Part shown: piece after piece, positions 7,754-64,000 of the stretch | Numbering within the stretch: position 1 is the stretch's first letter | Layout: every line of letters starts with the position of its first letter | DNA from: Tetradesmus obliquus | Taxonomy: Eukaryota; Chlorophyta; Chlorophyceae; Sphaeropleales; Scenedesmaceae | Direction: 5' to 3' | NCBI GenBank assembly: GCA_030272155.1 | Contig: CP126203.1 | Location: 248,001-312,000 of the forward strand | Length of the DNA stretch: 64,000 nucleotides | Position numbers and translations under genes: made by a program | The notes under the pieces: generated by a model | Seen by the model: only the letters and a program-made list of their open reading frames with translations | Databases searched by the model: none | Told to the model about the DNA's origin: nothing

Positions 7754-8323
7754 TCAAGACAGCCAGCCTCCTGCAGCAGCTGCTGCTGGCTTGCCAGGCT
7801 CCTGCTGCTTGCCTCCTGCTGCTGCATCGCCTGCTGCCCCCTGCTGCTCGCTGCTGCCACCCAGCCAGCTGCTCCACCCAGTAAACAAGCTGCCTGTGAT
7901 GTCCACAGCTGCTGCTGCTGCCGGCAGCGGCGTCTCGCCAGCATTCAACTTCTCAAGGCCCTGCAGCATGACATGGCAGACGTGCCAAGGGGACATGAGC
8001 AAACATTTGCTGCAGGTTGACGAACAGCAGCCTCAACACACAGATAATGCACGTGCACATAGAAAGCAACGAACTTCAGCAAGCAGCCAGTTAGAAGACA
8101 ATTAGGCAGAAAACAGCCGCGGCCGGAGATGTGCATTGTGCTGCTGTCCACTCCCTCGACACAGCAACAACAGCAGCAGCAGCAGCAGTAGCGCGCACCT
8201 GCTTGCAGCGCTGCATCTCCGAAGGCCCAAAAGCCAGCAGAGCCGCAAACACCGGCAGCAGCGCCTCCGCCTCCCCCGTGGTGTACAGCTGCAGCACCAG
8301 GTTCTTCAGGTACTCCATGTCCA

Positions 8324-8355
<32 letters not shown>

Positions 8356-8424
8356 TGGAGCAGCAGTAGCAGCAGCAGCAGCATGATATTTGCAGCACCA
8401 GGTTCCTGAGGTACTCCATGTCCC

Positions 8425-8476
<52 letters not shown>

Positions 8477-8624
8477 GCGGCAGTGTCAGCACCAGGTTCT
8501 TCAGGTACTCCATGTCCACCTGGCAGCAGCAGCAGCAGCAAGCAGCAGTAGCAGCAGAAAGCAGCAGTAGCAGCACCATGATATTTGCAGCACCAGGTTC
8601 TTCAGGTACACCATGTCCACACGG

Positions 8625-8665
<41 letters not shown>

Positions 8666-9615
8666 GCGTGTGCATGCATGTGCCTGCGTCATTTGTGTCA
8701 TTACTGCACCTGCACAGCATCACAGCTCACACGCACACCCAACACCGCTCTCACCAACTTAGCCCATACGGCACTCCTCTACGCAAGACAAGCCCCGACA
8801 GACGCCCTACTCATGCCGTGCTGTCCTGAACTGCCCTGTGCTGCAATCCCCGCGCTGTATGCAACCACCACCAAACACCCAGTCATACACACCTGTCGCC
8901 CGCCAGTATCCTGCCGCGCTGCTTTGAGCTCCAGCTCCCTCAGCGTGGTGACCACACAGTTCAAGCCAACAATCCCTAACTATCAGTCAAACACATCAAC
9001 CACCTTCAAACTATCAGTCAAACGCACCTGCCGCCCGCCAGTATCTTGCCGTGCTGCTTTGCGCTCCAGCTCCCTTAGTGTGTCCTTGAGTGCTGCTTCC
9101 ATCTCGGAGCGCAGCGCAAGCTCCTTTTCAAGATCTGCCACCTCCGACTCCAGCAGCTGCACCTGTGGTACGCAAATGCAGGCAGAAAAGCAAGCATTAT
9201 GAGTTGTAAGGAGACATAAGCTTATCTTCAGGGTCCGCCACCTCCGACTCAAGCAGCTGCATCTGCAGCAGGGAATTGCAGGCACAAAGGGACAAGACAT
9301 TGGGTTGGTGAGAGCCGAAAGCTCCTTCTTGATATTAGCCAACTCCGAATCCAGCAGCCGCACCTGTTGGCTGCAGGAATAACAAAAGCAACACCAAGTG
9401 TTGAGAAGCAAGCCACGTATTGCCGCCATGGGCTGCCAAGTTGCGCATCCGCTGTAGCAGCAGACCGTGCACACTTCAGCAGCACAGATGCGGCTGGCTG
9501 CCGAAGCCCCTTTTGCTTACCTGTGTCCTTGCTGCTGCCAGCTCCTCCTCCTTTGCAGCCTGCTTGGCAGCAAGGCTGACCAGCGACTCCATATCTGCTG
9601 CTGACATGCCCAGCC

Positions 9616-9646: not shown

Positions 9647-12600
9647 TCGCAGGCCAGCTTGCTGCTGCAGAGCTGCTGCTGCTGCTGCTGAGCTGGGGCT
9701 GTGCACCAGCCCGGATTGCAGGAGGTCGCTGCCGCTGGCTGCTTCGGTCAGTGCCTGGCTGCCGCTGGTTGCGGGGGGCGGTGCTGCTGCAAAGATGCTC
9801 TCCAGGATGTCTGCGCAAGTGCAGCACATTGGTACACACACAAGTGGCGTTGCGACTGGCTACAGCTGTGCTGACGTAAAGCTAAAGACGCTTATCAGAA
9901 ATGGCTGCACAGGTACACAAAGAAGGCACTACGAGCTCGACAGGCAAGCAGGGTAGAGCACATCAGCAACTGCGCTCCAAGCACTTGCAACCATGCCGGC
10001 CAGAACCACCCCTGCATCACAATTTGTTCCACACAAACACATCAGCCACAAGCACATATGCACTGCTGCGCAACCGGCACTGAAAACACCACACTCAAAC
10101 ACACAGCTTCATCCAAGCTGGATTCACATTGCGCAGCATGCCCACCTGGCTCAGAAGCCACGTAGCTGCCCAGCAACTGCTGGCTGCCCGCCACGCCCTG
10201 CATCACAGAACTGCCAGCCCCATGCCGGCTCTGCATAAGCCCCATGCTGCCTGTCACGCTGCTCGCGTCAAACCCTGAACCCTCATCACCACCAGCGCCA
10301 GCGCCAGTCGGCCCTGCTGAAGCACCCCCAAGCATGCCAGTGTCGCCGTCGCGCGCTGACGCAGATGCTGCCATTCCAGCCACCCGCTGCTGCTGCTGCT
10401 GCTGCTGCTGCTGCCGCAGCTGGCTGAGCTCCTCGGTGAGTGTGGCGTTTTTGCGCAGCGCTGCGAGCAGCTCGTTGTCTTTGGCCTCCATCATGGCCTC
10501 AGTAGTGGCGCGGTATGCGCGCTGCTCCTCCTGTTGGTTTGCAGGACATGATGCAGATCAGCATCAAGAACATGGTCAGCACGCGCAACATGGAAGTGTA
10601 CTGATGCCTCCGCCATGGGGTCAGTAGTGGCGCAGTAGGTGCGTTGCTCCTCCTGCAACAAAGCAAACAAGACCAGCGTGATTGGGCAGCGTCTTGCACG
10701 CATGAAGCCGACCTTTGCCGTCATCATGGCCTCAGTAGACGCGCGCTGCACGCACTGTTCCTCCTGCAGAATCCCAATAGACGCATGTGAGAACAGTGAA
10801 GACAGCAATCTGCACACGCAATGTGAGCACACCCAGGACGAGGTTGCACGGTTGCATGCAGTACGTGTGCTGCCCCATGGCGGCGGGGCACGCGCGCTGG
10901 TCCTCCTGCAGGGCTGCTCGATACATGCTAGCATGCCCTTCCCCCAATTCACACGGACGCGCGCATACAGGCGTATGCGCGCACACACGCACACACCTAC
11001 AGCTGCGCATACCGCGCTCGCACGTGCACTCGCACGCCAGCACACATGCAGGCGCGCAAGCCAACACTGTTGCATACTGTGACACGCGCTCACATGCACA
11101 CGCGCACGCCCATGATTGGGGCACGCCCAAGCGTACGCACAAGCACAGAGTTGCACACACCAACATGTGCGCGCGCACTCGCGCACTTATGCAAACGTCA
11201 GCAAGCATGCAGGCGTGTGAACACAACGAACACGTACGCGCACACATGGACAACCACGCATGCACACCAGCACGCCTACAGCCGCGCAAAGCGCACAGGC
11301 GCACACCCATGCAAGCATTCAGGCACGCAAATCAATGTGCGAGGTCACACGCGCAAGCGTACACACGCGCACATACTCAGCGAGCAAACATGCGCGCGCA
11401 CCCTGTGCCCACTCATTCACATACACGTCAGCAAGCATGCAGATGAGGCAACCAAAACCACTCGCACACCTACGCGCCGGCGCCAGCACGCGTGCGCGCA
11501 TGCACGAGCGCAGGCACACTTACATGCACACGCAAACATGCACACGCAAACATGCACACGCAAACATGCACACGCCGGAACACATGCAGACGCGGGAACC
11601 AAACCGCGCAGGCACACGGGCACGGCCAATCACACATGTACTTGCCAGCACACATGCACGCGCGCGCAAGCACACGACACGCAAACATGCACACGGCGGC
11701 ACGCATGAAGGTGTGTGTACAAACACGTGCGCGCACAGGCGCACACGCATATGTACACACGCACGCGCACATGCGCCATGCCAGCAGGCATATGCCATGC
11801 CATGCATGCACGCGCAGGCATACGACATGCATGCACGCGCGCTAACAGACATGTGTGTCGATCGCGCCCACACCCATGCACGCGCACGCACGTGCACATG
11901 CACCAGCACATACACACGCACAGGCACGCTCACACATGCACAGTTGCACGCGCCAACTCACATGCATGCGCGTGAACAAACACACGCGCGCGTACGCACA
12001 CGCGCGCAAGCTGAACACGCGCACGCACACGCACACATGCACACCCCAGCATGCATGCAGGCGCGCGAACAAACAAGTTCCCACACATGTGCACGCATGC
12101 ACGCACATTGCCCCACATCTCCTAGCACACTGCACTGCAATGTTACCCCCCCCCCCCCCCACTTGGTATGCAGTGCACTAAGCGCCCACCCCACCCCACC
12201 CCACCCCACCCCACACCAACCAAACCCAGCAAGCCACCCATACCGCGCGTCTCACCTGTAGCTTGCCCAGCTGCATCTCCAGCAGCTCACACCGCTGCTG
12301 CCATTGCTGCTGCTGTGCCCCGCCGCCTCCCAGCAGCATCGCATGGCCATGGCCAGCCCCTCCCTGCTGCTGCTGCTGCTGCTGGCTTGCCGCTGCTGTT
12401 GCCGCTGCCTTGGCCTGCCGCTTTGCTTCTATCAGCTCCTCCTGTGCCTCTGCCAGCGCCTGCCGAGCCTCATCAAGGCTGGCCTGGGCGTCCTGTGAGA
12501 GCTGCTGGTAGTGGCTGCCTGAGCTCCTGGCCTGAGACAGCTGAGCCTCCAGGGACTTGACCTGCAAAAGGCAAGAAAGCAGGGGCAATCGAGGCAGGCA

Positions 12601-15600
12601 GGCAGGTGGGGGGCCGATGGTGTGAGCCTCAACTGTTGGCCTGAGAGGGCTGCGTCAAGAGACTTGACCTGCAGCCAGACAGGCAAAGGAGGAGGAGAGC
12701 AGGCAGGTGAGGGGCTGGTAGTGGCTGCCTGAGCTCCTGTCCTGAGACAGTTGAGCTTCTAAGGACTTGACCTGCGGGCAGCCGAGCAGGCAGGCAACAG
12801 GTGAAGTAAAATTGGGACGATGGAAGCAGGCACGATGTGAAGGAAGGCAGCGCATAGGCTGGGCGCGCGGATGGCGTTTGCTCAGAGCCGCGGGCATCAA
12901 AGCGGTCGCTAAAGCTCTTAAACAAGCAACTGTGCATATGTGCTACTGCGCATGCACTGAAACATGCTGTGTTGGTAATGATCAGCTTTTGCTGTGCCTG
13001 CCTTCTTGCACGTGTTGGTCGAACCACGCCTCTCCCCTCAGCGGCATACACCCCTGCGCCTTACCTGCTGCTCGTAGCTCTGCTGCTGCTGCTCCAGCTG
13101 CTTGTGTGCCGCCTCAGCAGCAGCCTCCATCAGCTGCTTCAACTGCGCCACCTCGGACTGCAGGCTGCTGCTGCTGCTGCTGTTCGCGCTGCTGATGGAT
13201 GCTGATGCTGCCTCCGACTTGGCTGCAGCCACTTCTGCATCCTTGGCCCGCAGCAGCGCCTGCAGCAGCAGCAGCAGCAGCAGCAGCAGCGCCATGGCAG
13301 TTGTAAGAAAGCTGGGTTGATGCCATGCGTACTTAGCCAGCACGCTGCTTGCGCAGTACGTCGGCAAATCAGCAGCCAAGCATGTTGTGTGGCACGCATC
13401 ACATCAGGCAGCAAGCTCCTCAAACCATTCTTGACATGCAAGAATATGCAAGCAATGCTGTGGGCAAATTGATCGCAAGCTCTACAAGCAGCACAGCGCC
13501 AGCAGCCGCACCGTTGCGCGCCCCTTGTAATCGCGCAGGTCTGCCTCCAGCCTCGCCACTTGCGCCCGCGAGGACTCCAGCTGCTGCAACGCCATCTGCA
13601 CCTGCACACACAATGATAGAAATACATGCATGTAACAGCGTGCAAAGGTCTGGCAAAATGCACTCGCGAGGACTCCAGGTACTGCAGTGCCAGCTGTACC
13701 TGCACACACAGTGACATAAACACACAATTGCATAGACCTGGCAACCTGTGCCCGTGCCGACTCCAGCTGCTGCAGCGCTAGCTGCACATGCATATGCCAT
13801 TGTTCAGGGCACACGCATCCTTGCAGGTGCAGAATTGATGATGCAAAAGCCGAACACCTCATCAGGAAGCTGCGCACGCTCTGTACCTCAGTGCAGCGGC
13901 CAGGCCATGCTCAGCACAACCGGCAAGGCCCCAAACCCTGCAGTGTGTGCACTGCAGCATGCAGAAGCACCAGCTGCCCGCCGCACCTCCATGCGCTGCC
14001 CGTCGCGCTCCGCCTCTGCTTTGCCGCGCAGCTCGGCAGCAGCCAGGTCAGCTGCGTGCTTCTCCTTCTGCGCCTTGGCGGCACGCCGCTTGGCCTCCTC
14101 CAGCGTGCGCAGCAGCCTGTAGGAGATGCGGCAGCAGTGCAGCAGCAGCAGCCACGTCAAATGTGTCCTGCACTTTAGATGCGTTACTGCGCGCGGCTTC
14201 GCCTCCTCCAGTGCGCACCGCAGTGCAGCAGCAGCAGCAGCAGCATTAAAGAGGTGCTGCAGCAACAAAGACATGTGAGATATGGTGCCCTGATGCACGC
14301 GCTGTGAGCTGTAACAAAGGTGCCCCCAGCTCAGCACATCAGCAGTTAGCCTCCTCCACCACAAGTCCCACCATAAAGAAGGCAGAGTGCGGAAGCAGGT
14401 CACTTGAAAACAGCAGTAGCTAGGCGCATCTGAGCAGTGACCCGCGCACATCCGGTTTTGAGCACAACCGTGCCCCCAGATCTGCATACTCCACATCAGC
14501 CGAACACAACCGCAGCTCACTTGTTCTTCTCCGCCTCTGCGTCCCGCTTCGCTGCAGCCAGCTCGCCCCGCACCGCCTCCGCATCTGCCTTTGCAGCCGC
14601 CACCTCGCTACTGGCGCTGCTGGCAGCATTGTTGGCTGCGCTGCTGGCGTTGGCCACTGCTAGTTCGGCTGCTGCCAGCTGCGCTGTCAATGACTCCAGC
14701 TTGGCTTCTGCTGCATCTGCTCGGCGCGTGAGGTGCGATACGCGCTGCTCGTGTTGTGCCTGCATATTCAACGACAGAAGCGACAGAATCAGGGCAGCCA
14801 CAAGGACAATTGCTCCCTGTATGCATGCGCTCAGCACGCGGTACACAAAGTTCTGCAGTATGTGGCTCCGTGTCACTGCCACCAGTTGTTGCCACCCAAT
14901 GCCACGCAACACCACCAGCCCTGCATCTCCCTACTTACTGTGATGTGTGACAGGTGCTGCGCAGCCTGCTCCTTGTCAGCCGGCGCTGCCGCGTCCGCCT
15001 GTCTCCGCAACCTTGCTGGCAGCCCCCTCCAGCCGGCCCACTACATTGCTCCTAACCACCATGAAACTGACCAGCAAGCTAACAAAGCCGAACAAAACAA
15101 ATGAAGTCTTTGTACAAACCGCAAACTCACCGTGATGTGTGACAGGTGTTGCGCGGCCTGCTCCCGGTCAGCCAGCGCAGCTGCATCCGCCTGCCGCAGC
15201 TGCAGCCCGGCCTCAGCAGCCTTGCTGTTGGCCTCTTCTAGCTGCACAATCAGCGCCTGCATCTTCATGGCAGCCTCTGCCTTATCAGCAGCAGCCTCCG
15301 CTAGCTTGGCTTTCAGGTTTGCCAGCTGCTTGTTTGCTGCCTCGTGGTGCTGGGGAGGCCCTGCAGTGACAGCAACACCCTTGCTGCTGCTGCTGCTGTT
15401 GCTGCTGGCCTCAACTTGCTGCTGCTGTGCGGCTTCTAGTTGCGCTTGCAGCGCCTTGATGCTAGCGTTGAACTCTGCTTGCTTCTTCTTGGCCACCAGC
15501 ACGAAGCGCTTCTTGCTCTCTGCCAGCTCACTCTTGGCAGCAGCAGCGGCAGCAGCAGCAGCGTCCAGCTCTGCAGACAGCCTGGCCACGTCTGCTGCAA

Positions 15601-17950
15601 GCGCCTCTGAGCCAGCTGCTGATGCAGCTGCAGTTTCAGATGGTGCTGCCGGCTGCTCGGTTGCGGTGCTGCTAGCATCAGCCCTGTCTGCCGCAGCAGC
15701 ACCACCAGCAAGGCCTGCTTGAGCAGCTGCGGTCTGGCTGGCAGCTGCATCTGCTGCTGCTGCTGCCAGCTGCTCCTCCAGCTCTGCAATGCGTTGCCGC
15801 GCCTCACTCAGCTGCTGCTGCAGAGCAGCAGATGCCTCATTGAGCGCAGCAGCATCGCGTTGCAGCTGCTCCTGCTGCTGTAGCAGCACTGCTGACTGGC
15901 TTGCTGCCTCAACCAGCTGCTGCTCAAGCTCTGCAACGCGCTGCTGCGCAGCTGCCAGGTCTTGCTGCTGCTCTTGCTGCTGCGCCTGCGTCTGCTCTGC
16001 TTCTGCTGACTGAACAGCTGGTGCCCCCAGCTGCTGCTCCAGATCTGCTATGCGCTGCTGTGCAGCTGCAAGATCCTGCTGCTGCTGTTGGTCCTGCTGC
16101 TGGTCCCATTCTGCACACTGTATGGCTGCTGCTGCCAGCTGCTGCTCTAGATCTGCGATGCGCTGCTGTGCAGCTTCCAGATCCTGCTCCTGCTGCTGTT
16201 GATCCAGTTCTGCAGCCTCTATAGCTGCTGCCGCCAACTGCTGCTCAAGCACTGCTATGCGCTGCTGAGCCTGGTCCAGTTGCTGCTGCAGTTCTGATAC
16301 CCTGTCAGCCGAAACCGCCAGCTCCTGCTGCTGCTCCTGCTGCGCCGCAGCTGCACCGGTCTCACTTGGAGCTGCACTGGCAGCACCTCCGCTGCTCTCA
16401 TCCAGGGATGCGCGCATGCCGTGCTGCTGCTTCAGCTGGCGTAGCTGCTGCTGCAGGTCCTGCGACGCAGCAGAAGCAGCAACAAGACACACACATTCAC
16501 TTGCCCAGCCCATGCGCTCAACACGAACCCCACCGGTACGATGCCAGCAAACCACATATAAAACAGCTTGCCTTGCAGCTTGGCACACAAGTCAGCTATG
16601 GCAATCCACCAAACACGCACGCCAACTGTAACGGAACCACTAATAGGCAATGCTATTAGGTGGGATTTCGCCCATATAAGTCATACGAGGGTGACCATCC
16701 CGTTACACCAACCATGCGCACCTGTATGCGCTCGTCTGCTGCTGCCTGCTGCTCCTCCAGGTGCGCCGCCTGCTGCTGCTTGGCCTGCAGGCTCTCACGC
16801 AGCTTGCCGGCCTCCGACATGCGCACAGACAGCTCGCCTGCGTGGTCAGAGCAGGCAGCAAAACCAGTACGTACACAAAGCAAAGCAAGTGGGAGGATGT
16901 GTGGCAAGTGCACAAGCATGCCTGCCTCTGACATGCGCACAGACAGCTAGACTGAATGGCCAGGGACAGGCAGCACAGTCAGTGCGTACGCATGGCAAAG
17001 CACGTAAGTGCACGTGTTGCAATTGCACCAACATGCTTGCGGGTTAATGCGGGACACAGCATGCAGTGGTTTTGAGTTGCAACAGTGCTAGCCATTGCCA
17101 TGGAGGCCTGTAAAGCTTCCTACAGCAGCAGCATGCCGCTACCAAGTGTAGCTGTGCATGCTGCATGCCTGCCGCACCTGACAGCTGGTCATGCAGCTCC
17201 TGCAGCTGCTCATTTGCCTTCTGCAGTGCCTCATTACTCTCCTGCAGCTCTGACAAGCGCGCCTGCAATGCTGCTGCCTCTGCTGCTGCTGCCTGCTCTT
17301 GCTGCTGCTGCACATCCTGCCGACTGTGCTGCTGTAGCTGTTGCTGCAACTCCTCGTTTGCTGCCTGCTGCTCCGACACCTGCAGCTGCAGCTGCTGCAG
17401 CTGAGCGCAGAGCTGCTCCTTGTCAGCAGCAAGGCCCTGCAGCTGCTGAGAGCTGAGCTCCTGCTGCTGCTGCTGCGCTGCGTCAAGCTGCTGCTCCAGC
17501 TCCTGCAGCTGCATGGCCAAGCATTTGTTGTCAGCTGTGAGCGGTTGACACTGGCCTTTGTCAGCTGCTGCTGGTGGTTGCGCTTCAGCCGTGCTGTCGC
17601 CAGCATCCGCTGCTCCATTTGCTACATCCTGCTGCTGCTGCGCTTGCTGCTTTAGCTGTGCCAGCGCAGCATCAAGCTGCTCCTGCAGCACCTGCTGCTG
17701 CTGCAGCGCCGCCTGCTGTTGCTCATCTGCACCAGCCAGCCTGCTGTTTGCTGCCTCTAGCTCAGCAGCAGCAGCAGCCTTGGCATCCTGCGCTTCTGAC
17801 AGCTGCTGCTCCAGCTGCTGCAGCTGCTGCTGCGCCTGCTCTGCAGCTGCTAGCTCTGCCATGGCACCTGCCAGCTGCGCAGTCAGGTCTGCATTTGCTT
17901 GTGTAAGAGCATCGATGTGCACTGCCTGGTGGCCATCATCATTGTCATAA

Positions 17951-19989: not shown

Positions 19990-21013
19990 GTCCACACCTC
20001 GTCGTCAGCGTAGCAACAACTGACCTATTACATCATTTTAAAGTCCCCAGTGAGCGCTGAGCCAGTCACTCTTGGCTCGCTTTGCCGAGAAGTACGGGGG
20101 GTTGGCAGCAGCAAGCCGTCCGATCAGTTTATGCAAGAGACAGTTGAAGCAGGAGTCTATCAGTTCAGCTGTATGTTGAGGGTATGCTGTCAGGATGCCC
20201 AGGCACGAACCCCATGCACGCCATGGCACGGTTTGACGGTGGATGGCACAAAGGTAATTGATCTAATGTCACTTGTAGCGTCAGCTCGCGATGGTCACAA
20301 TGTGCGGCAAGCTCCAGGTGGGCAGCTGCACTTTTCATCGCTGGTTTGCAGGGCATGGAGTGAGGGTGACAGGAGGAGAAGGCTGCATAAGAGCTTAAGA
20401 TATGTCTATACAGTAGTATCACTGGGTTGGTGGTATCTCTGGCACCAGGGAAGGCAATGACTGCGCACAAATGTGTCCCAGCTGATTGGCGTGGACTTGT
20501 GTCCCACTGCAGCGTATGGCGCACAGCGTGTGCCGGGGCAGGCCCTCCTGGAGTTGGGCTGCAGTTTCGAATCCTACTAGAGGGCCTCTAGTACAGGCAG
20601 CTGCATAACGTTGCATGCTGCCGGCGTGCTGTTAAATGGGTTGTGCTTTAGTGCTGCACTGGTGCCCAACTTCGGACAGGGGTGTGGCCAGCCCTTTCAC
20701 GTGCTGCTGTTGCTGCTCCTCTTGCACCGTCACATGTTGTGCATGCTGGTAATAGTTGTTGTTTTCCTGGTACTGAACTCCATGTTGACACCTGCGGCGG
20801 AACACCCATGTTGAAAACCTAGCTGCAGGTTTGGGGGAGGTGGACTCATCAATGACACCAGGGCTTGAAGTACTGTTCATGCCTTTACTTTAAGTGTACC
20901 TGCAACGTTCAAGCAGTTTATACACGTTGGGTTGGACGCTGCCAGCACCTTGTGTCTGTACACGGAAAACGTTGCTGCGGGAGGTCTCCGTTTGTTTGCT
21001 TCCACTGGCAACC
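19990..21013. other. intergenic, divergent promoters
   Basis: Lies between the golgin start (minus) and the Ycf45-like gene (plus), so both promoters should be here. A GGCCCTC...GAGGGCC inverted repeat is at about 20548-20586. From about 20610 onward the sequence is shared with about 36980-38090 as part of the segmental duplication. No convincing coding exon seen. Confidence 0.5.
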
Positions 21014-21722: not shown

Positions 21723-21762
<40 letters not shown>

Positions 21763-38544: not shown

Positions 38545-38580
<36 letters not shown>

Positions 38581-39042: not shown

Positions 39043-39080
<38 letters not shown>

Positions 39081-46758: not shown

Positions 46759-47944
46759 TGGTGTGGGGCGAAGCGTTTGACCCCGAGGTGCAGGAGCGCA
46801 AGAAGCAGGAGCGCATCGAGGCGCAACGGGCAGCAGAGAAGGAGGCCTTTGAGAAGCGCGAGGCGTGAGTTGCTGCTGTGCTGTTGCGGTTTGTTCACTG
46901 GTCGCTGGTGTGCTGGTTGTTGACAGCAGCTGTTGCCGTAGCGCAACGGAGAAGGGGGTCTTCGAGAAGGGCGAGGCATGAGGGGGATTCTGCTGTAGCG
47001 TGTCATGCAGCTGGGAGGCTGCTGCAGCAGCTCATACAACAGCTTCCTGCTGTGCTGCATTGATTGACAACCGTAGTTGTCACACACAAAACAGCAGCAC
47101 TGCTGTTGTGGCAGCGCACTCACACCCGCTCGCCATCACCTGCTGCATTCTGATCCATCTTACCTATTGTTAATCTCGCTGCTGCTTGCAGCGCGCAAGG
47201 AGCACGGGCAGCGCCTGCAGCGTTCATGCTGATGTGTGTGGCAGTGCACTCACACCTGACAGCTGTTAACTGCTGCATGCTGAAATGTCCTGCATGTTGT
47301 TTTGCTGCTAATGCTGTTGCTGCTGCTGCAGGGCGCGCAAGGAGCGCGAGGAGCGCCTGCAGCGTTCATGCTGCTGTGTGTGGCAGCGTCCTCACACCTG
47401 ACAGCTACAACTTCCTTCATGCTGACATGTCTTTCATGTTTGCTGCTGGTGCTGTTGCTGCTGCTGCAGGGCACGCAAGGAGCGCGAGGAGCGCCTGCAG
47501 CGGCAGGAGCAGCAACGCGCCGAGCGCGAGGCAGCAGCAGCAGAAGCAGAGCAGCGCCGCCGTGAGCGCGAGCAGCAGCGGCGCGACGGCAGGGCCGGCG
47601 AGGGCGGCAGCAGCAGAGGCTTTGATGATGGCAGGGGCCATGGAAGAGGCTATGGTGATGGCAGGCGGGGTGGGGAGTACGGCAGTGAGGGTGGCAGGGG
47701 CCGGCGGGGGCAGTACCTGCCTAGTGGCGAGGGCTACTACTCGCGTGGGGATGCAGCACCTGACAGGTACAACCCTGATGCGGAGAGGGAAGACATGGAC
47801 AGGGACAGGCAGGGTGCAGATCGGGCAGACAAGGGGAAAGGCAGGGGCAGGGAGGATGCGGCTGCAGCTGACCGCGGCAGGGAGAAAGCTAAGGACAGCA
47901 AGCAGCAGAAGCGGCGCCGGCGCAGCCCTAGCAGCAGCAGTGGC

Positions 47945-50925: not shown

Positions 50926-53278
50926 GGCCCACCAGGAAGGCCAGCAGCCCCACCAGCAGCACCGGCAGCAGCGAGGCGGGCGACAGCGCGCCGCCGCCGG
51001 AGCCTACGCTGCCTGCGCCTGCTGCTGAGCCGCGGTCCGCCTTCTTGAGCTGCGGCGGCGCGTGCGAAGATGAGCGTTTGCAGGACAGGAGAGGGGAGAG
51101 CAGAGCAGGTGGTGGCATCAGGCGAGGCATGGCGCAAGGAGCAGGTGTGGCAGAGTACACAGATGCGCCATGGGGCGCGTGTGTGCATGCGAGTTGGTTT
51201 ACCAGCTGCTGTGGCACTGGTGCAGCATGCTGGTCACAGACAAGCTGCTGCTGGCGTTGATGCAGCTGCAACTAGCATCATGTGTTGCAGCGCACTCTAC
51301 TGGCCGGCTCGGCTTTGCACTATGTGTTGCAGCACGCTCTGCTGGTCAGCTACAGCTTTGAACTCCATGAACAAGTTTCACAACTATCACTAAACAAAAC
51401 ATGAACAAAGCCGCAAGCTGTCAGCGCCGCACCTCGCGTGACAGCCTCTCCTTCTCGTCCCTCAGCTTCTGCAGCTCCGCCCGCAGCGCACGGTTCTCGT
51501 GGCTCAGCGAGGACGCGTCACCACCTGGCGGCAGCAGCGGCGGCATCGACGGCAGCATATTGAGCCCAGCACACCAGTCACGGCGAAGCCACAACACTCT
51601 GCCCTCAAATCATGTGTCCAGTCTTGCTAAGCCTCATGCCATATGTTCTGGTGCCAGGACCCGCATGAATCACCTCTCATGTAGGATGACTTGTGTACCG
51701 CAAGAGCTGCAGTGAGCCTCACCTGCACTGCCGCCGAGTGCTGCTGCGCTGCTAAAGGTGTCCGTGGTTGGCGCTGCGCCGCCGGCTGTGCGCATGCTGG
51801 CGTTGTCCTCATCACCCTCATTCACCTCCGGCACTGGAGAGGGAGGGGCAGGCGGGCCCTCCAGCAGCACACGGATCTTGGTGTCCTGCAAGCAAGAATA
51901 GTGTGAGAAAGGAGTCAGAAAGGTGAAAAACAATACAGTTGAGTTCCAAAATATGGATGAAATGGGGAAACAGGCATGTACATGCTGCTGCTATGTAGGG
52001 GTGTGTTGGGGCATGTGAGGTGAGGTACGTGGGACACAGGGGAGACGCAGAGGGGTAGCCGCGGGGGCACGCCGGGATGCGTATTCAGACATCGTGACAC
52101 AGAAGTAGGCTGTGTGGCGCCAGCAAGTCAGCAGATGCCACCCAGTTGTGCTGCGATGCTTCATGAAGGGCTTGCAACGCCAGCTGCTTCGCTGCTTCGC
52201 TGCACACATGCAGTGACGGAAAGCTGCAAGCTTCAAGTTCATGCCGCACTGCAGCGTGCCCAAGCAGCTGCCTGCTACAGCTGTTGCTGTGTCAACTTCT
52301 GCTGCCCTTTGCTGCGCTTGCTCCCCACCTTGACTCCCTTGGCTGCCTTGAACGTATCTGCTCCCACATCCTGCAAGCACGTGCAGCAGAGAACCCAGCA
52401 GCATGCTTGTCAGCAGCACTTGATCCCGCGCGCTTTGCACCACGGGCAGATCATGAGCAGCTAAACCATCAAGTGCTGAAAAGAGATGACATGCATAAGT
52501 CAAACGCACGGCGCATAATTGTCTGATACAATTGAAGGCTGTCGCATGCGTGCTGTCAGAGCAGCATGGAACTGCCTGTGCATGCCTCACCTCTCCCGCC
52601 TCCAGCCCCTTCACTTGCACCAGGAACTTGTCTTTGCAGTTGGCAAAGTCTGAAGGAATCTCCTTCTGCGCCTGCGGGTAAATATAAGGCATTGCACTGT
52701 TGACACTTGACACACCCCCGGAAACACAGGTGCTGCACACTCATACTGCTGTTGCTTGCACGTGGGCCCTGCTCCTTGCTTGGCAACGACTGCCGCTGCT
52801 GCTTGAGCTTACCTGCATGATGACCTGCACGTTTGCGGTGCTCCTGGCATCAACCACGCCCTGCAGAGGCAATGAGGTTGAACGTCAACCAACCCATCAA
52901 GCAGCAGAAGCGGGTGATTCCTGAAACTGCCGGCTCCGTGCTGTACTTACCGAGCTGGGACGAACAACATATTTCTTGGGCGTCGTGGTCTTGACCTGCA
53001 CGCAGCAGGATCGTCAGCACGCGCACAGCTGCACAGCTCGCAGGCGTTCAACTGCCCACGCACCTTGAAAGCCAGCCGATCTCCTGTGGGATTGTGGATG
53101 CTAATCGCCGTAGGCAGCTGCTTGTTTAGTTGAACTGCAAGCAAAGGGAAGACATAGCACGAGCGCGTGAGCACTAGCCTGCACTGCTTTGGGCACCTGC
53201 TGAGGCTACAGCACGCCAGCACGCCCGCTCACATCTGAACTTCAGTTCTGAGGGGGTGACTTCAGCCTGCTCTGCCAT
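50873..53278 (-). CDS. VAP homologue (MSP domain, tail-anchored ER protein)
   Basis: Exons 53278-53233, 53134-53064, 52995-52951, 52860-52813, 52671-52591, 51885-51723, 51524-51433 and 51049-50873, all in phase, 240 aa. Residues 1-about 105 are a major sperm protein domain: ELKFRFQLNKQLPTAISIHN, then LAFKVKTTTPKKYVVRPSSG, VIMQAQKEIP and CKDKFLVQ. The Lys/Thr-rich strand that binds FFAT motifs in VAPs is present. A Pro/Ala/Gly linker follows, then a coiled coil (SHENRALRAELQKLRDEKER) and a C-terminal membrane anchor at about residues 207-226 (LLPVLLVGLLAFLVGHYL). Family knowledge: VAPs sit in the ER membrane and recruit lipid-transfer and contact-site proteins. Length and order match plant and animal VAPs. 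The terminal exon is followed by several tail copies. Confidence 0.94.
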
Positions 53279-55859: not shown

Positions 55860-58800
55860 ATGTACCAGCTGCAAAGAACTCCTGGTGCTCAGCTATGTAA
55901 TAAAAAGCAGTCTCAGCGTGTCCATGCGCGCGTGGCGAGCGCTGGTCCCTCAAGAGGATTGCTTGGAGCACGCCGTACATGTGCTACAGTGGTGAACTCG
56001 GCTGCTGGAGCTAGGTAAGAAGTTTGAAAGGGGCAGCGAATGCTTCATCCTATGCTGGTGGTCTGCGTGAGCAATGGGTAGAACTCGGCCTGGCAGTTCC
56101 ATGCTTGATCTTGAACGCATGTGCTTTTATCGCTCTTGCTATTACGAAAAACGCATGTTGCATGCGTTATGCGCAGGCTGACCTTCACCAGCGGAGCAGC
56201 TCGCCCAAGGGTCAGCAGCAGTAGCAGCAGCAGGTCCTACGCACAGCAGCATGCCTGGAGCCCGTATAGGCAAGGCCCTAAGCCCGCAGGGCCGCACATC
56301 GCAGCGTCTGTGCACGTGCGGGGCAGGCGTGTGATCATCTGTGCCTCTCTGGTGAGCATGCAGTGTGTTCAGGCAGCCCAAAGATCAGCAGCATGACAGT
56401 AGCAGGCTGTGCGTGTGCTAGTTTTGTTGCCGCATGCATGCATTCACAGCCACACAGTTGCACTACAGTAACACATACCTTGCTGGCTGGAGTGTGCATG
56501 CAGTTGGGGCCTTTGCCCCGTGTCAGACGCCGCAGCAGCATTCATCGAGCAGCGTGCTGTGCTGGCATGTGCAGAAAGCAAACCACATGCATTGTCGTTG
56601 TGGAGTCGCATGGTTGTTGCTTCACAAAGGCTCTTTTTTGTGCATACAGGAGCAGGTGGTGTGATGCATGGTTTACATGAATGCAAATGTACAGCAGTTT
56701 TGTGTGTCGCATTGCAGCACCCATAGCACCGCATGCATATCTGCTTGCTGCCCACAGAACAGCAGACGTCATTTCACTGGTTTGGCGGCACGCCCTGCAA
56801 CCCTTGGTTGGATTTCACCCGCGTGCCGGCATACCGGTGATGCTCATGTCGCTACACTGCATATTCTTGTCTTCGCCAATTGTTGTTTGTTATGTGCTGA
56901 TGTTCACGACCACTGCTTCTGCATGCATCCTGCCATATCCTGTCCTGCAGGCTGGCGTCGCAGACAGCCCCACTGGCACAGACAGCGGCAGCGGCAGCAG
57001 CAGCGGCAGCGGCAGCAGCAGCGAGCTGCTGTCGCAGCGCGTGAAGGGCAACCAGCAGCTGGTTACAGGCCAGCTCAGCAACGGCCTGCGCTACGTGCTG
57101 CTGCCCAACCGCACGCCGCCGCAGCGCTTTGAGGCACACTTGGAGGTGCATGCAGGCAGCGTGGACGAGCGGGAGCACGAGCAGGTGCGTTGACATGTTT
57201 GTGTTTGTTCAGTGTATTGTTTGTCCTGCAGTTCAAGCCGTGGACCCTACACCCATGGTGTTGCTGTGCACATACATGGTAGCGGGGCGAGGCTGTGTGG
57301 TTGTTAGAGGCTGCGGCTGCCTGGCGGGCCCAAGGTGAAGTTGCATGCTGCTGCCCAGCAGCAGCCCTTCTAGGTGCATGCGGAGGTGCATATCAGCAGT
57401 GTTGATGATTGGGAGCACCAGCAGGTGTTTGATGTATCGCATGTGTTGGCTGGTGCTGGCTTGGGCTTTGCTGCTTGCAGTTTCTGGTCTTTTTGGTATT
57501 TGTGCACATGGCAACAGTGCGAGGCTGACTGGGGCAGCTGAGGTGATGCCGCAGCAGCTGCTTGTACGCGGCGCACCTGTATGTCAAGGCGGGAGCCGAG
57601 CATATTCACCAGGGGGGCAGCAGCAGGCGCAGTGGGGCAGCTGGTGTGCAAGTCTGACTGAATTGTGGTCTCACACAGCCCACACAGCACGATGCAACGC
57701 AGTTCAGTGAGACATGCACTGTATTCATGGAAGGCCGTGGCACATCTGGTTCAGTGACATGACTGGGCTGGCATCATCACCCATTTGTCGCACACACACC
57801 TAGCAATTTTGCATCGTATCACCCCTCATCTATGCATGCTTGCAGGGGGTGGCGCACGTGATGGAGCACATGACTGTCATGTGCTTGCACCATCACCCAT
57901 CCGTCCATCCATCCATTCAATCGTGTATTTGTTATGAACTTCGTCACTTTGCAGGGCGTGGCGCACCTGGTGGAGCACGTGACCTTCCTGGGCAGCAAGC
58001 GGCGTGAGAGTCTGCTGGGCACGGGGGCACGGGCCAACGCGTACACCGACTTCCACCACACCGTGTTCCACGTGCACGCGCCGCTCACCAACTGCATCAC
58101 AGGCACACCCATGCTGCCCCAGGTAAGGCCTAGATGACAGCTGTTGGTGTGTTTTCTATTCTGTGCTGCTGTTGTCAGTCGTTTCTACTAGCATGCGCCG
58201 CTCACCAACTGCATCACAGGCACACCCATGCTGCCCCAGGTGAGATTGAGATTGTTGCTGCTGGTTTGTTTCCTATGCTCTGCTGCTGTTGCCAGTAGTT
58301 TTTGTCAGGTTCTAGCAGCACGCGCCGCTCATTAACTGCATCACAGGCACACCCATGCTGCCCCAGGTGAGGTGTTGATCACAGCTGAATATGTTTGGCT
58401 TGAAGCAAGGCAGTGTTAATGTGCTGCATTGTCACTGCTTGTGATTGGTGCCGGCGGTGATGCTAGCGCAGCACGAGGAGCAGGCATTGCAACACAGCAG
58501 GGGCAGCAGTGTGCTGGAGGCGCTCGCTGAGATCCACTGCCGCACATCTCGCTGCTGCAACTCGTGCTCTGTTGTGCCATTTTCATGCTGTTCACGCTGC
58601 ACTCTCGCCGCAGGTGCTGGAGGCGCCGGCTGATATCGGCTGTGAGCCTCATTTCTTGCGCTTGCCACTCATGCTCCTCTACTGCTGCCTTACAAAACAT
58701 TGCTGCACTCTCGCTGCAGGTGCTGGAGGCGCTGGCTGAGATTGCGTTTGTGCCTCAGTTCCTGCCCATGCGGCTGGAGAAGGAGCGCAAGGCGGTGCTG

Positions 58801-59713
58801 GCGGAGGCGCAGATGATGAACACGATCGAGTACCGCATCGACTGCCAGCTGCTTACGCACCTGCACGCAGAAAACAACCTGGGCTGCAGGTGCGAAAAGT
58901 TTGTCGGAATGGTGACGGAAAAGAACTTGTGCGGACTTGTAAAGTATGTGTGGGCATTGCAGCTGCTGACGCACCTGCACGTGGAGAACAACCCGGGCTG
59001 CAGGTGGGAGCTGTGTAGGAGTGCCAGTTCGTTGTCAGTTTGTTGTCAGCTTGTATTTTGTTGCACTGTCGGCTGCTGATGCACCTCTACACGGAGAACA
59101 ACATGAACTGCAGGTGCGGGGCAGCAGGTTGAAGGACTGTTGCTGGTCTGTTGTCAGTGCGTGTACTCCTCTGCGGGCAACGGCAGCATAGACATCGGTG
59201 CTCACCACACGCATGCATACAACGCCAAGCTACACCAGCGGATGCTTTCTCTTCTTCATCTGCTGACCAGTGCATTTTCAACACCTTGTTGGCTACTTTG
59301 CACTGCATCAAAACAGGTTCCCCATCGGCAAGACCGAGCAGGTCAAGGCCTGGGAGCACGCCATCGTGCAGCACTTCTGGGCCAAGTGGTACTTCCCGGG
59401 CAACGTGACGCTGTACATCGTGGGAGACCTGGACAGGCCCAACGAGGAGGTCATCGGCCTGATCGAGGCGTCATTCGGGCGCTTCCCGGCAGGTGCGGGA
59501 GTAATTCTTGTGTGGGATTATGCACACGCGAGTATGCATGTGATGCATGGTGCCCGGCCTTGGCTGGTAAAAGCATTAACTTCGTAATCCACTCTGCCGA
59601 TGACGCACGTGATGATGGAGGGCATGATGACCACCATGACACAGTGGAGATGGTGGAGTACAAGCATGCATACAGCTGTGGGTATCACCATGAAGTTGAC
59701 CACTTTGGATATT

Positions 59714-59798
<85 letters not shown>

Positions 59799-61073
59799 AG
59801 GCAATCTGGCTGACCACGGAGCGGATGTGGCAACAGCAGTGCTGGAGCGCCTCACCGCCAACGGCAGCAGCAGCAGCAACGGCGCCGCCAGCCACGGCAG
59901 CAGCAGCAACGGCAATGGCACCGCTGCGCTCGCAGCAGCAGTCGACTCACTGCCTGCGCAGCTGGTCCCTGCTGCCGCTGCTGCTGCCGCTGCCGGCGCC
60001 GCCGAGCCGGGCGCCTACGTGGCGTCCGCCGACGGCTCGTGGGCCCGCAACATAATAATCAACGGCGATGACGCCACTGTGTTAGGCCCTGGGGTGATGG
60101 CGGTGACGCCTGACGGCCGCAAGTTACGCCACCCGGTGCGGCCGCCGGTGGTGCACCGGCACGGCTGCGGCCCGCTGATGCCGAGTGAGCCGCCGGCTCC
60201 TCCCGTGAGCATCTTCCGGCACCCGCTGCTGCAGCACTTCATGCTGACGGTGTTCTGCAAGCTGCCGGTGGTGACGCTGAGCAGCATGGGCGACTTGAAG
60301 TACAGCTTCATGGTGCGGCTGCTGCTGAGCGCCTTCCAGTTCAGGATCAACCAACGGTGGGTGGCTTTGTGTTCGTTTTGGTGTTATTTTGTTACATGTT
60401 ATTGTTGTTTTGAGCAGCATGGGCGATCTGAAGTACAGCTTCATGGTGCGGCTGCTGCTGAGCGCGTTTCGTTCAGGATCAACCAGAGGTGGGTGGCACT
60501 GTGTCATTTTTGTGTCACTGTGTTACTGTGTAACCGTGTTACGTGTCGTTGTTATTTTGGGCAGGATGGTCGACCTGAAGTACAGCTTCATGGTGACATC
60601 ATTGGTCGGAGGAGCGGAGTGAGGCACTGGCGCTTCTCTCTGTGTCATCTTGGCTACATGCCGTGCACGATGCGTCAATGCTGTTGACTGACTGCGTGCT
60701 GCCCCTGCTGCTGCTGCTGCTGCAGGTATGTGCGTGCGGACCCTCCCTTCATCGGCATTGAGCTGGACATCAGCGACAGCGGGCGTGAGGGCTGCAGCGT
60801 GTCCATGCTCACCATCACAGCACAGCCCGTGCACTGGCAGGAGACGGTGCAGGTGCGCTGTTGCAACAAAGTAACATGTTACATGGGTGCTACATGGGTT
60901 GAGGGCTGCAGCGTGTCCATGCCTCACCGTCTCTGTGCAGCCCGTGCACTGGCAGGAGACGGTACAGGAGCGTTGGTTGATATGACAAGTCAACATGTTG
61001 GATGGGTTGTGGGTGCTGGTCACGCGTTTGTTGCCAACACTTGCGAGCTGGAGCGCTACATCCCGACTCACTG

Positions 61074-61112
<39 letters not shown>

Positions 61113-62409
61113 CTGCTGTTGAGGAGATGCGGCGGCTGCAGCGCTTCGGGCTGACCCCCAGCGAGCTGGAGCGCTACATCCTGGCCATCATGCGGGACAG
61201 CGCGCAGCTGAGTGAGCAGGCCAACAGCATCCCCAGCATCAACAGCCTGGACTTTGTCATGGAGAGCCTGGCGCTGGGCCACACCGTGATGAGCCACGGG
61301 TGAGGGTTGTTACTTCATATGTATTTTTTATTTTTCTTATTGGTGTGCTCAAAATCAACAGCCTGACTTTGTTATGGAGAGCCTGGCGCTGGGCCACGCC
61401 GTGATGAGCCGTGGGGCGAGTATGTTATTTTACATGTTTTTTATTGTTGTTTTTATTGGTGTGCTCAGAAATAACAGCTTGGACTTTGTCATGGAGAGCC
61501 TGGCGCTTGGACATACTGTGGATGAGCCATGGGCGAGTTTGTTACTTGATGTGTTATTTGGCTTCTTTTGTTGTTGATGTTACTGGAGTCAACAGCCTGG
61601 ACTTTGTGAAGGAGGGCGCTGGGCCACACCGTGACGAGCCACGGGCGAGATATCAATGCTAGCAGTCCTTGTAAGCCGTACCTGCTGTTATTGGCGCCGC
61701 GGGGGTGAAACATGGAGTGTTGTGAACCATGATACATTGAGTGCCATGATGGCGGTGGCAGGCACCAAGCAGATGTTCCCTTTCATTCACCCTGCTGGCC
61801 TCTCGTGCTGTCACATGCATTTTGTTACCTTGTTGCTGCAGCGAAGGCTCGAGTCCATCATGGCTGTGGCAGCAGACATCAAACTGGAGTAGATCAACCA
61901 GCACATGCTCATTCACTCATCCTCACATGCTGCTGTGCCCATCCCCACCTCTTTGCTACCGCTGCCTTTGTCATGTTATTGCAGCGAGGCGCACGAGGCC
62001 ATGATGGCAGTGGCCGCAGACATCAAGCTGGAGGAGGTCAACGCAGTGGCAGCCAGCCTGCTCACCTTTGCCAGCGATGTGGGCAGAGAAGCAGACATGC
62101 TGGCAGAGGCGGCACAGCCGGGCCAGGAGGGCAAGTGGGCGCGGCCTGGACCCACACGGTGCGTGGTTGTGTGCTGCTTTTGCTGTGTTTGGAAGTCGTT
62201 TGCTTTGGTGGTTTCCTCATGCTGTTGCTGGGCGTGGTTGGGGCGCATTATTTGCTGTGGCAGCTGTGTGGTTGCACGCTGTTGTTGACTGCGCTGTCTT
62301 GCATGCTGCTGTTGTTCTTAATGCTGCGCTGGATTGCCGGGTGGTAATTCCTGCATCTTGTGTGGCAGCATGTTGTGTGACAAAGCACGGAGACTCACCA
62401 GACTGCTGG

Positions 62410-62448
<39 letters not shown>

Positions 62449-64000
62449 GCAGGGCTACCTCTGTGGTGGCGTGCATCCCTGCCTACGTGTCAGCAGCAGG
62501 CGATGTGGTGAGTGGCGCACCCCCAGTACGTGTTGGCGCACAGCTGCTTCCTGACTGTGCTCGGTGTGTATGCATCACCTGCTGTGCGGCGTCTTGCACC
62601 CCAGCTTGCAATGCACATCTCTTGTCTGTGTGTCTGGTTGCTGTAGCACCTGTGCGGATGCCGGATCGGTCTAGCCATCCTGTTGTGCATAATGGTGATG
62701 GCTGCCTCATGATTGTCTTGCTGCTTGTGCCTGCTGCTTCCGCTTGGTCTTGTGTTGCTGCAGGTGTCTGTGGGTGGCGGCATGGGCCATGGCCGTGGAG
62801 GCATGGGCGCCAGCGGGCACCTGGACGCAGGTGAGGCGGCAGCAGCAGCAGCAGCAGCAGCAGCGGCCACCTGGATGCAGGTGAGGCAGCTGCAGCAGGG
62901 GCAGCAGCAGCAGGGGCAGCAGCAGCAGCAGCAGCAGCAGGGGCAGCAGCAGCAGCAGCGGCAGCAGCAGCAGCAGGGGCAGGGGCAGCAGCAGCGGCAG
63001 CAGCAGCGGGCACCTGGATGCAGGTGTGATAGCGGCAGCAGCAGTGGCAGCAGCAGGCGGTGTGCGCTTTTGGCAGGCACTGGTTTTCCATCCTATGCTG
63101 CTGCCACAGTTGCCCATCGCACTTGATGTTGCACTGTTGCTGTGTGTTGCTGTATGACGGCTGCCGCTAGTTATGCTTTGCAGCGAGTGCTGCGGGTGCT
63201 GCCCGTGTCCAGCAGCCGCCAACTGACTGCTGAGTCAGCAATCTAGCATGCTGCATGCATGTGTTATATGGGGTGTTATTAATATGTTACATGACATGTT
63301 ACATGCAGACGCCATCAATCTGGAGGAGCTGGAGTCGCAGGGCCGCCAGCTGGATGCCCTGCAGGACATGGAGGCGCCAGAGGGCGCATACAGGTGGGCT
63401 GTTATGTAACATGTTCCATTAAGCAGCAAGTAAGTAACAGTCATGCTCTATTGAAGCAGTAAAAGCGATGCGCACAGCTGGCCGTGCCCAAATCTTGTGC
63501 AACCTGCTTTGTCGTCGTGCTTGATGTTTGCCGTGGTCCGCAGCACTGAGCCGCGTCGACCTCTCACATGCACCACATCTCCTCCTGCTGTTATTTTCTG
63601 TGTGTTGTGACAGGTTTGACCTGAGCCCCGAGCAGATCCTGTCCGCGCTGGCATCGCCGGACCTGGTCATCGAGCCTGCGCCTGATGTGGAGCTGCCGCA
63701 GCACCTGGTGGACCCACAGGAGATTGAAGCTACCATGCAGGTGCGTTCAATATCACTTTGTGTAACTATGATCACTTGTGCTAGGGAAAGCTGCCATGCT
63801 GTCTTGTGTTGGCAGCACCTGGTAGGCAGCTGACCCCTTTGGGGCCACTCAGACATATCTTAACTGTGATGTGTGCTGCATCACTTTTATGCCCCTGCAG
63901 GAGCTGCAGCCTCGCTTCATCCCGCTGCAGGGCGAGCTGGAGCAGCTGCTGGCCACGCCGCCCGAGGCGCTGGAGCCTGCGCTGTGCTGCCCTCCCACTG
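55860..64000 (+). CDS. SPP: chloroplast stromal processing peptidase, M16 family (3' end beyond window)
   Basis: Exons: 55860-56014 joined to 56177-56351 (or a start at ATG 56169), 56951-57184, 57955-58122, 58720-58889, 59317-59492, 59801-60356, 60726-60852, 61112-61299, 61985-62158, 62453-62507, 62764-62830, 63309-63393, 63614-63740 and 63901-beyond the end; all in phase. A basic Ser/Ala/Arg transit peptide precedes LSNGLRYVLLPNRTPPQRFE and the inverted zinc motif HLVEH (HxxEH), then LGSKRRESLLGTGARANAY and TDFHHTVFHVHAP, which is diagnostic of SPP. The distal zinc-ligand region QMMNTIEYRIDCQLLTHLH follows, then WYFPGNVTLYIVGDLDRPNE, DSGREGCSVSMLTITAQP and NSLDFVMESLALGHTVM. Family knowledge: SPP removes transit peptides from imported preproteins in the stroma. 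An Ala/Ser/Gly-rich stretch at 59801-59999 is an extra insertion. The C-terminal half is missing only because the window ends. Seven or more introns carry partial exon copies. Confidence 0.92.
57352..57427 (+). repeat. copy of SPP exon 2 end with donor
   Basis: Repeats the region encoding AHLEVHAGSVDEREHEQ and the CAG|GTG donor, with substitutions and a stop. Confidence 0.8.
57838..57890 (+). repeat. copy of the zinc-motif exon start with acceptor
   Basis: TTGCAG followed by GVAHVMEHMTVM mirrors the real GVAHLVEHVTFL exon at 57955. Even HxxEH is kept, but it breaks after 14 codons. Confidence 0.88.
58188..58370 (+). repeat. two copies of SPP exon 3 end with donor
   Basis: Both encode NCITGTPMLPQ and keep a CAG|GTGAG donor. 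They lie at about 58196-58240 and 58321-58370. Confidence 0.92.
58500..58655 (+). repeat. two copies of SPP exon 4 start
   Basis: VLEALAEI-type sequence at about 58512-58545 and 58613-58645 (the latter after a CCGCAG acceptor) precedes the real exon at 58720. Confidence 0.88.
58958..59118 (+). repeat. two copies of SPP exon 4 end with donor
   Basis: LLTHLHVENNPGC and LLMHLYTENNMNC, each with an AG|GT donor, follow the real LLTHLHAENNLGC at 58847-58889. Confidence 0.92.
59717..59799. repeat. (CTG)27 tract at a 3' splice site
   Basis: An uninterrupted run of about 27 CTG units ends in CTGCAG at the acceptor of the SPP exon at 59801. It gives poly-Ala, poly-Leu and poly-Gln frames that are not coding. 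Confidence 0.97.
60412..60605 (+). repeat. two copies of SPP exon 6 end
   Basis: SSMGDLKYSFMVRLLLSAF with donor at about 60415-60489, and a shorter MVDLKYSFMV copy at 60563-60600. Confidence 0.92.
60893..60972 (+). repeat. copy of SPP exon 7 end
   Basis: GAGGGCTGCAGCGTGTCCATG through CACTGGCAGGAGACGGTACAG repeats 60787-60852. Confidence 0.92.
61345..61652 (+). repeat. three copies of SPP exon 8 end
   Basis: Segments at about 61346-61420, 61470-61537 and 61588-61650 repeat NSLDFVMESLALGHTVMS from 61236-61299 with progressive decay. The period is about 120 bp. The donor GGGTGAGG decays to GGGCGAG. Confidence 0.95.
61735..61895 (+). repeat. two copies of SPP exon 9 start
   Basis: AMMAVAGTKQ at about 61746-61775, and an acceptor-bearing copy at 61842-61892 (SIMAVAADIKLE then TAG), before the real exon at 61985. 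Confidence 0.9.
62408..62449. repeat. (CTG)n tract at a 3' splice site
   Basis: About 14 CTG units just before the acceptor of the SPP exon at 62453. Confidence 0.95.
62834..63030 (+). repeat. CAG-rich tract with two copies of SPP exon 11 end
   Basis: CACCTGGATGCAGGTG recurs at about 62869-62884 and 63010-63025 after the real 62817-62832. CAG/GGGCAG repeats separate them. Confidence 0.9.

Follow-up and report, generated by a model that had tools for sequence, protein, structure and literature searches.

Why do the introns of several unrelated genes in one stretch of the Tetradesmus obliquus genome carry decayed copies of the exon edges that flank them? The stretch in question, hereafter the window, is 64,000 nucleotides long and corresponds to C13:248001-312000 of a 104.66-Mb genome in 17 contigs. 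A first-pass annotation of the window had described, in genes for a golgin, CWC21, VAP and 'SPP', at least 20 exon ends accompanied by one to three copies of 30-70 exonic bases plus the adjoining splice site, and had proposed a process of serial tandem duplication that creates or lengthens introns. The probable answer, which we favour with some reserve, is that recurrent tandem duplication of 100-150 bp across splice junctions lengthens existing introns, the inner copies decaying approximately neutrally.

Copies of exon edges in adjoining introns

A copy of the junction's own exon edge is present in the adjoining intron at 65 of 329 splice junctions, about one in five, and donors (35/163) and acceptors (30/166) are affected alike. 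These junctions were drawn from 270 kb of sequence, made up of the window, its continuation (L021) and 20 other loci of 10 kb each, in which all 17 contigs are represented; the loci were chosen at round, non-random positions, 17 of them at base 1,000,001, one at 1,500,001 and two at 2,000,001. None of the 329 reverse-complemented flanks gave a match, and the corresponding figures were 6 of 3290 for flanks from other loci and 5 of 168 for exon-interior segments. Serial tandem duplication over exon-intron borders, in unrelated genes and on both strands, is thus beyond chance, as had been claimed from the window, and the presence of copies in 11 of the 19 other loci with testable junctions bears out the suggestion that the process reaches past it. 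In a self-comparison of the window, direct repeats are concentrated at 50-300 bp and inverted ones are nearly absent, and the same excess of direct over inverted repeats at 50-300 bp is found in the 20 loci from all 17 contigs.

Within the window itself, 22 of 91 junctions carry a copy. Three of these are doubtful: those at 5945 and 62976 both lie in CAG-rich sequence, while that at 61141 is a model-called acceptor where homology sets the acceptor at 61112. The resulting range of 19 to 22 agrees with the original estimate of at least 20 exon ends. The copies are distributed over the golgin gene (8/29 junctions), the CWC21 gene (2/12), the 'SPP' gene (11/23) and the start of the window (1/2). 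The 'SPP' gene is an M16 metalloprotease of the stromal processing peptidase type, as indicated by its homologues and by Pfam PF00675/PF05193 on its first exons, and the domain search places a cwf21 domain in the CWC21 gene and an MSP domain in the VAP gene; the golgin gene was classed as a coiled-coil gene from its translation alone. Three of the four genes named initially therefore carry copies, and the VAP gene does not, neither at its 6 model junctions nor at its 14 hand-set ones.

The M16 gene was also tested separately by aligning 60-nt exon ends to their own intron. In this test, 200 windows from the remaining introns of the gene served as one control and 200 shuffles as another; against each of them, 11 of 24 junctions outscore all but at most one. 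The two sets of 11 differ by one, the acceptor of intron 10 passing the other-intron test only and the donor of intron 12 the shuffle test only. In the alignments, the extra copies number one to three per border and lie in tandem, as reported initially, and their exonic length of mostly 30-90 bases is in line with the 30-70 first given. The further statement that the splice site is preserved in the copies is true of about two thirds of them (GT in 22 of 34 donor copies, AG in 21 of 29 acceptor copies) and fails for the remainder.

The exons outside the M16, CWC21 and VAP genes come from our own statistical exon model, built without RNA evidence, which called 194 exons in the 270 kb. When compared with the 13 M16 exons, the model was right at every known edge for 9, at one edge for 2, and missed 2. 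Within the window, the M16 gene model itself has 13 exons and 12 introns, 11 of the exons being backed by tblastn with homologues, whereas exons 10 and 13, as well as the precise splice edges, were placed by eye; in the L021 continuation the exons are model calls assumed to be part of the same gene. Junctions were left out of the wide test when the flank ran off the locus or was shorter than 120 bp, when the exon was shorter than 50 bp, or when the edge held more than 20 masked bases. The sample has a guanine-cytosine content of 0.57 and a mean intron of 451 bp (introns of 90-1500 bp between model exons), and PMC5966456 gives 57% and 462 bp for T. obliquus.

The duplicated unit

The alignments show that the repeated unit consists of the exon edge, the splice site and adjoining intron sequence, in tandem. 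After exclusion of two of the 65 matches with a spacer below 25 bases, 63 pairs remained in which the spacers, i.e., the intron halves of the unit, could be compared, and in 42 of these they are related (z≥3, with single-letter shuffles as the reference). Pasting of exon sequence alone, with no intron attached, may consequently account for a minority of the copies at most.

Single units (period 90-160, n=47, spacers of 0 being left out) measure 123±15 bp and comprise 57±16 exonic and 66±16 intronic bases, so that the junction lies at about the middle of the unit. The mean period is 124.8 at donors and 120.2 at acceptors, and the shapes agree. This centring was compared with a random-breakpoint null, in which the exon part is uniform from 28 bases (a detection limit set by the analysts) to the full period. 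Only 2 of the 47 spacers hold fewer than 47 intronic bases, compared with 23.9 expected, and random breakpoints are rejected (Kolmogorov-Smirnov test, P=3e-8). In the 18 pairs from 56 kb onwards, 11 in the window's M16 gene and 7 in L021, all spacers are at least 47 bases long. Periods shorter than about 97 bp scarcely occur: a single match among the 65 has a period of 36 bp, and the intron scan described below adds crossing matches at 77, 86 and 95.

The far edge of the copies shows no sharp splice motif in 26 donor-type and 23 acceptor-type pairs; a weak excess of AG is seen one base inside the copy start (6/26). A unit composed of the exon end and the entire intron up to its acceptor AG was considered and rejected, since copies neither start at a sharp AG nor end at a sharp GT.

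Apparent lengthening of existing introns

An intron scan was performed on 121 introns of 90-1500 bp between model exons, with repeat distances up to 300 bp; 41 of them hold some match, 36 a match that crosses the border and 5 non-crossing matches only. Introns with copies have a median length of 507 bp, against 290 bp for copy-free introns (P=8e-8). When the duplicated length is subtracted, the median of the copy-bearing introns falls to 294 bp, which does not differ from that of copy-free introns (P=0.96), with a single residual being negative (-72). The near identity of the residual and copy-free values means that the copies lengthen otherwise ordinary introns, and this half of the original proposal is upheld. 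The same agreement led us to reject short ancestral introns as the cause of border-crossing, although old undetected duplications could inflate both values.

The other half, by which duplication of an AGGT-containing segment would create introns, is not supported. Intron gain of this kind should leave an intron that terminates in a duplicate of the upstream exon's last bases, or begins with a duplicate of the downstream exon's first ones. None of the 65 crossing matches, which lie in 36 of the 121 introns, shows this geometry. Furthermore, many units hold intron sequence beside the splice site, and the intron must therefore have existed before the duplication. The CAG|GT junctions that had been read as a sign of AGGT duplication reflect the donor consensus of this genome, which is CAG|GTG.

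Decay of the inner copies

Frameshifts are present in 23 of 67 copies (28 of 62 under other alignment settings), leaving 44 of 67 without one, and stops in 8 of 67. A 100-bp array in locus L011 was left out of the codon-position, frameshift and splice-site-retention counts, and one of its two edges was left out of the 62-copy frameshift count. The periods show no clear enrichment for multiples of three (26/21/16 by remainder). Splice dinucleotides are kept in 41 of 61 copies under strict alignment (P=0.016 for so few) and in 45 of 61 with a one-base shift (P=0.17), where 48.4 would be expected from pair divergence under decay. Retention is thus not above expectation, and the idea that copies are kept as decoys was abandoned. 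As a group, the copies do not have the two flanking splice sites and intact frame of duplicated or mutually exclusive exons, although 44 of 67 are free of frameshifts and single copies may be of that kind.

In the 24 pairs whose spacers align at z≥5, indels per base amount to 0.057 in intron parts and 0.010 in exon parts. In exon copies diverged by more than 12% (21 pairs), mismatches at first, second and third codon positions number 71/49/84, and over all 67 pairs a third position is 2.3 times as likely to differ as a first or second one. A strong claim of coding constraint was tried on 20 triples and rejected, changes unique to the younger copy being 14/8/19 (P=0.09); a count over 36 overlapping triples (51/50/94) was set aside, since changes of the exon lineage are mixed into it. 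The decoys or optional mini-exons suggested by the first-pass annotation are hence disfavoured by the far edges, the frameshifts and the splice-site retention, while the third-position bias leaves a used minority possible.

Association with junctions and patchiness

The repeats are tied to gene structure. Exon/non-exon repeat pairs number 56, compared with 25.5±4.9 when the exon map is circularly shifted, and none of 500 shifts reaches 56. In an ordinary minisatellite, position would be independent of gene structure; both this count and the centring (P=3e-8) show otherwise. Of the 40 repeat pairs without a strong exon, 24 were inspected, many of them being situated at weakly predicted exons or close to one. 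By the analysts' own reading, made without an automated count, most of the 43 intron-only matches belong to junction-attached arrays or to weakly predicted exons.

The distribution is patchy. Among groups with at least five junctions the heterogeneity is considerable (P=2.8e-6), some having none of 14-19 junctions with a copy and others 8/19 or 6/12. Six loci (L002, L003, L007, L008, L015 and L017) are copy-free, with 0 of 10-16 junctions each, and in four (L006, L011, L014 and L016) the fraction of junctions with a copy ranges from 0.29 to 0.50. In the window, the segment from 20 to 45 kb has none at 19 junctions; it holds two similar gene-like stretches, at 20894-22850 and 37900-39900, which lie about 17 kb apart on the same strand.

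Proposed mechanism and its alternatives

In the mechanism that we favour, a local tandem duplication would repeatedly copy a segment of 100-150 bp straddling the junction (about 57 bp of exon and 66 bp of intron). The original, outer splice site would stay in use, leaving the protein unchanged and the intron longer by one unit, and repeated events would stack copies at one border. The inner copies, now part of the intron, would decay roughly neutrally. Events would be retained where splicing can ignore them, with a working acceptor that keeps its branch-point region and a working donor that is still followed by about 50 nt of genuine intron ahead of any exon-like stretch. The branch point and the pyrimidine tract must remain beside the working acceptor, and such a splicing filter would explain a lower limit of about 47 intronic bases in acceptor units and possibly in donor units as well. 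It fails to explain the near-absence of periods below about 97 bp, the equal shape of donor and acceptor units and the shortage of events in intron interiors, the last two of which would be explained by a process centred on the border. As to the source of the units, staggered-nick tandem duplications in plants are one possibility for this size class, although we know of no tie between these and splice junctions.

Several observations weigh against this account as it stands. In 21 of 63 pairs no relation between the spacers can be detected, and this applies to 6 of the 21 pairs in which exon identity is at least 0.93; at L011:591 a 98% exon copy is accompanied by an unrelated spacer; plain tandem duplication with a common clock is insufficient for these unless later deletion is invoked. 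The 24 pairs with spacers at z≥5 give a divergence of 0.078 for the exon part and 0.177 for the intron part, and the corrected ratio of 2.4 (1.8-3.4), which in itself speaks for the account by being close to the 2 expected for a constrained exon copy with a drifting remainder, is biased downward, as the pairs were selected for alignable spacers. In exon copies of low divergence, mismatches by codon position are 5/1/25 (18 pairs below 6%) and 22/28/91 (28 pairs at 6-12%). Neutral decay of the copy together with silent change in the exon allows a factor of about 2 at most, and the bias therefore exceeds the neutral expectation; it may reflect either coding constraint on the low-divergence copies or extra silent differences in the exons, such as an old polymorphism of about 7% or allele replacement. 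Introns with internal matches only number at most 5 of 121, where a rough expectation exceeds 15, and a neutral process acting uniformly fails on this shortage. The estimate, rough as it is, favours a preference for junctions without proving one, and the account offers no demonstrated cause for such a preference. Finally, the alike shapes of donor and acceptor units are not predicted by a splicing filter alone.

One alternative is that tandem duplication of about 100-150 bp is neutral and uniform along the genome, and is visible mainly at junctions because exon halves under selection persist while intron halves vanish. The divergence ratio near 2 where it can be measured, the denser indels in intron parts and the similar size range of non-exon pairs all agree with this. 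However, it leaves the centring on the junction unaccounted for, and pure-intron events are few although intron halves alone are detectable, at the same threshold (score 45), in 18 of 63 pairs, so that duplications wholly within introns should show; a 290-bp intron moreover offers duplications about 1.7 times more starting points in its interior than across the two borders. We regard this explanation as rather unlikely. A bolder view, which we entertain as a tentative possibility, is that splice junctions are themselves centres of duplication, with about 60 bp copied on either side, that the spare junctions so stacked may briefly be used under coding constraint before decaying, and that the process is a main source of long introns in this genome. 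Candidate triggers would be the spacing of chromatin, RNA-DNA hybrids, or nicks where base composition changes at the exon-intron border.

The reading that copies function for a time as spliced-in redundant exon ends or starts under coding constraint and then decay seems improbable. It draws on the excess of third-position changes, which is high at low divergence (25/31 and 91/141) and falls to 84/204 in diverged pairs, and on copies with changes at third positions only, such as the acceptor copy at L006 7509-7727 (0/0/7). Against it stand the frameshifts and stops, periods that show no clear preference for multiples of three, far edges lacking a sharp splice motif, splice sites retained no better than decay predicts and the younger-copy changes in the 20 triples, and high synonymous polymorphism or allelic exon replacement would mimic the bias. 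Creation of introns from a duplicated AGGT-containing exon segment, the duplicated unit being the intron, is very improbable here. The CAG|GT seen at numerous borders, the intron-like size of the tandem units and single published cases (PMC4974935, PMC2891723) would suit it, but its geometry is absent, many units already contain intron sequence and the residual intron length equals that of copy-free introns. That the arrays are errors of assembly is barely credible: short tandem arrays are a known hazard, but such errors would yield near-identical copies, whereas the copies here differ by up to about 20% with indels and recur at 11 of 19 other testable loci. Recurrent duplication across junctions with lengthening of existing introns thus remains the account we prefer.

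Comparison with known systems

In potato RdRp, according to PMC4974935, a tandem duplication over an intron-exon boundary gave a new intron, as shown by comparison with relatives. The present units resemble it in that the tandem duplication takes in the last stretch of an intron, the beginning of the exon that follows and the splice signals, and exon part, splice site and intron part are found here in tandem as well, with spacers related in 42 of the 63 pairs and not detectably so in 21. They differ in that copying of borders is frequent, at donors as much as at acceptors, and that the intron appears merely to become longer. The AGGT exon-duplication model of intron gain (Rogers 1989; Hellsten 2011), which PMC4974935 outlines, shares tandem duplication and the splice consensus with the present case, but its intron-creating geometry is seen in 0 of 65 crossing matches. 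Internal gene duplications (Gao and Lynch 2009, as cited in PMC4974935 and PMC2809761) are short duplications within genes, some with introns; the present units, unlike these, have a single junction at their centre and apparently contribute no coding sequence. In Drosophila, a few novel intron positions are attributed in PMC2891723 to regional tandem duplication near proto-splice sites, which is a likeness, except that there coding sequence was duplicated and became intron. For introner-type elements, the comparison covered exon edges against other-locus flanks only, with the 6 matches in 3290 given above. Among the papers listed in the literature searches, judged by titles and the openings of abstracts, no junction-centred duplication is reported in any alga, and within that scope the frequency, narrow size range, junction centring and effect on intron length seem to be new.

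Copies in individual genes of the window

The M16 gene (56951..64000, plus strand) has exons 1-13 in the window and runs past 64000; the assignment is based on homologues, tblastn (11/13 exons) and the two Pfam families named above. Its intron 1 contains a decayed copy of the exon 1 end with donor at 57336..57424 (period ~240) and a copy of the acceptor and exon 2 start at 57846..57874 (period 109). Intron 2 holds two copies of the exon 2 end with donor, the first, with a GTGAG donor, at 58179..58239 (period 117) and the second at 58319..58366, followed by a copy of the acceptor and exon 3 start at 58614..58665 (period 106), an older version of which lies upstream at ~58503-58534. The exon 3 end and donor are copied in intron 3 at 58960..59003 (period 114), with a third decayed copy ending at ~59114, and those of exon 5 in intron 5 at 60410..60488 (period 132, frameshifted), with a partial third copy at ~60565. 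In intron 6, the copy of the exon 6 end at 60901..60967 (period 115) is frameshifted and its donor GT has become GA. Three copies of the exon 7 end, with indels, form an array with the exon in intron 7 at 61353..61649 (period ~115), and the same intron has a frameshifted copy of the acceptor and exon 8 start at 61841..61902 (period 144), with a possible older copy near 61741. All of these are on the plus strand.

The CWC21 gene, also on the plus strand, has an intronic exon-end copy that has lost its donor at 46943..46977 and a copy of an acceptor and exon start at 47332..47364 (period 138). In the golgin gene, on the minus strand, exon-start copies are located at 9218..9256 (period 100), 10606..10652 (period 122), 12705..12771 (period 210), 13737..13787 (period 186), 14136..14224 (period 108; weak, with several indels) and 16915..16951 (period 114), and exon-end copies at 8893..8947 (period 135, with donor) and 14939..15029 (period 192, frameshifted). 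The VAP gene, with its MSP domain and no junction copies (0/14), occupies 50933..53134 on the minus strand.

Other repeats were noted in passing. A tandem pair of about 1.1 kb, near-identical by eye and with Cys-rich reading frames, occupies window positions 1-1080 and ~1098-2180, and a perfect 11-bp satellite (ATGACTATTAC) is present in 17.5 copies at 27291-27483. CAG/CTG tracts, many of them uninterrupted, are very frequent in exons, introns and intergenic DNA of the window. In an intron of the M16 continuation, at ~560-950 of L021 (joined coordinates 64560-64950), there is a perfect short satellite with a period of ~47 bp and repeat matches at 94, 141, 188, 235 and 282. Positions 1-3670 of L017 form a satellite with a period of ~275 bp and 95-96% identity.

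Implications for intron growth

The lengthening of introns is usually ascribed to transposons and random insertions. Here, one local process adds about 120 bp per event at splice borders in about three in ten of the introns scanned (36/121), and the copies suffice to account for the excess length of the introns that bear them. As every copy provides a clock of its own together with a functional exon to match it, the growth of introns could be timed. The system could furthermore be used to measure selection against duplicate splice sites and to test splice borders as mutational hot spots.

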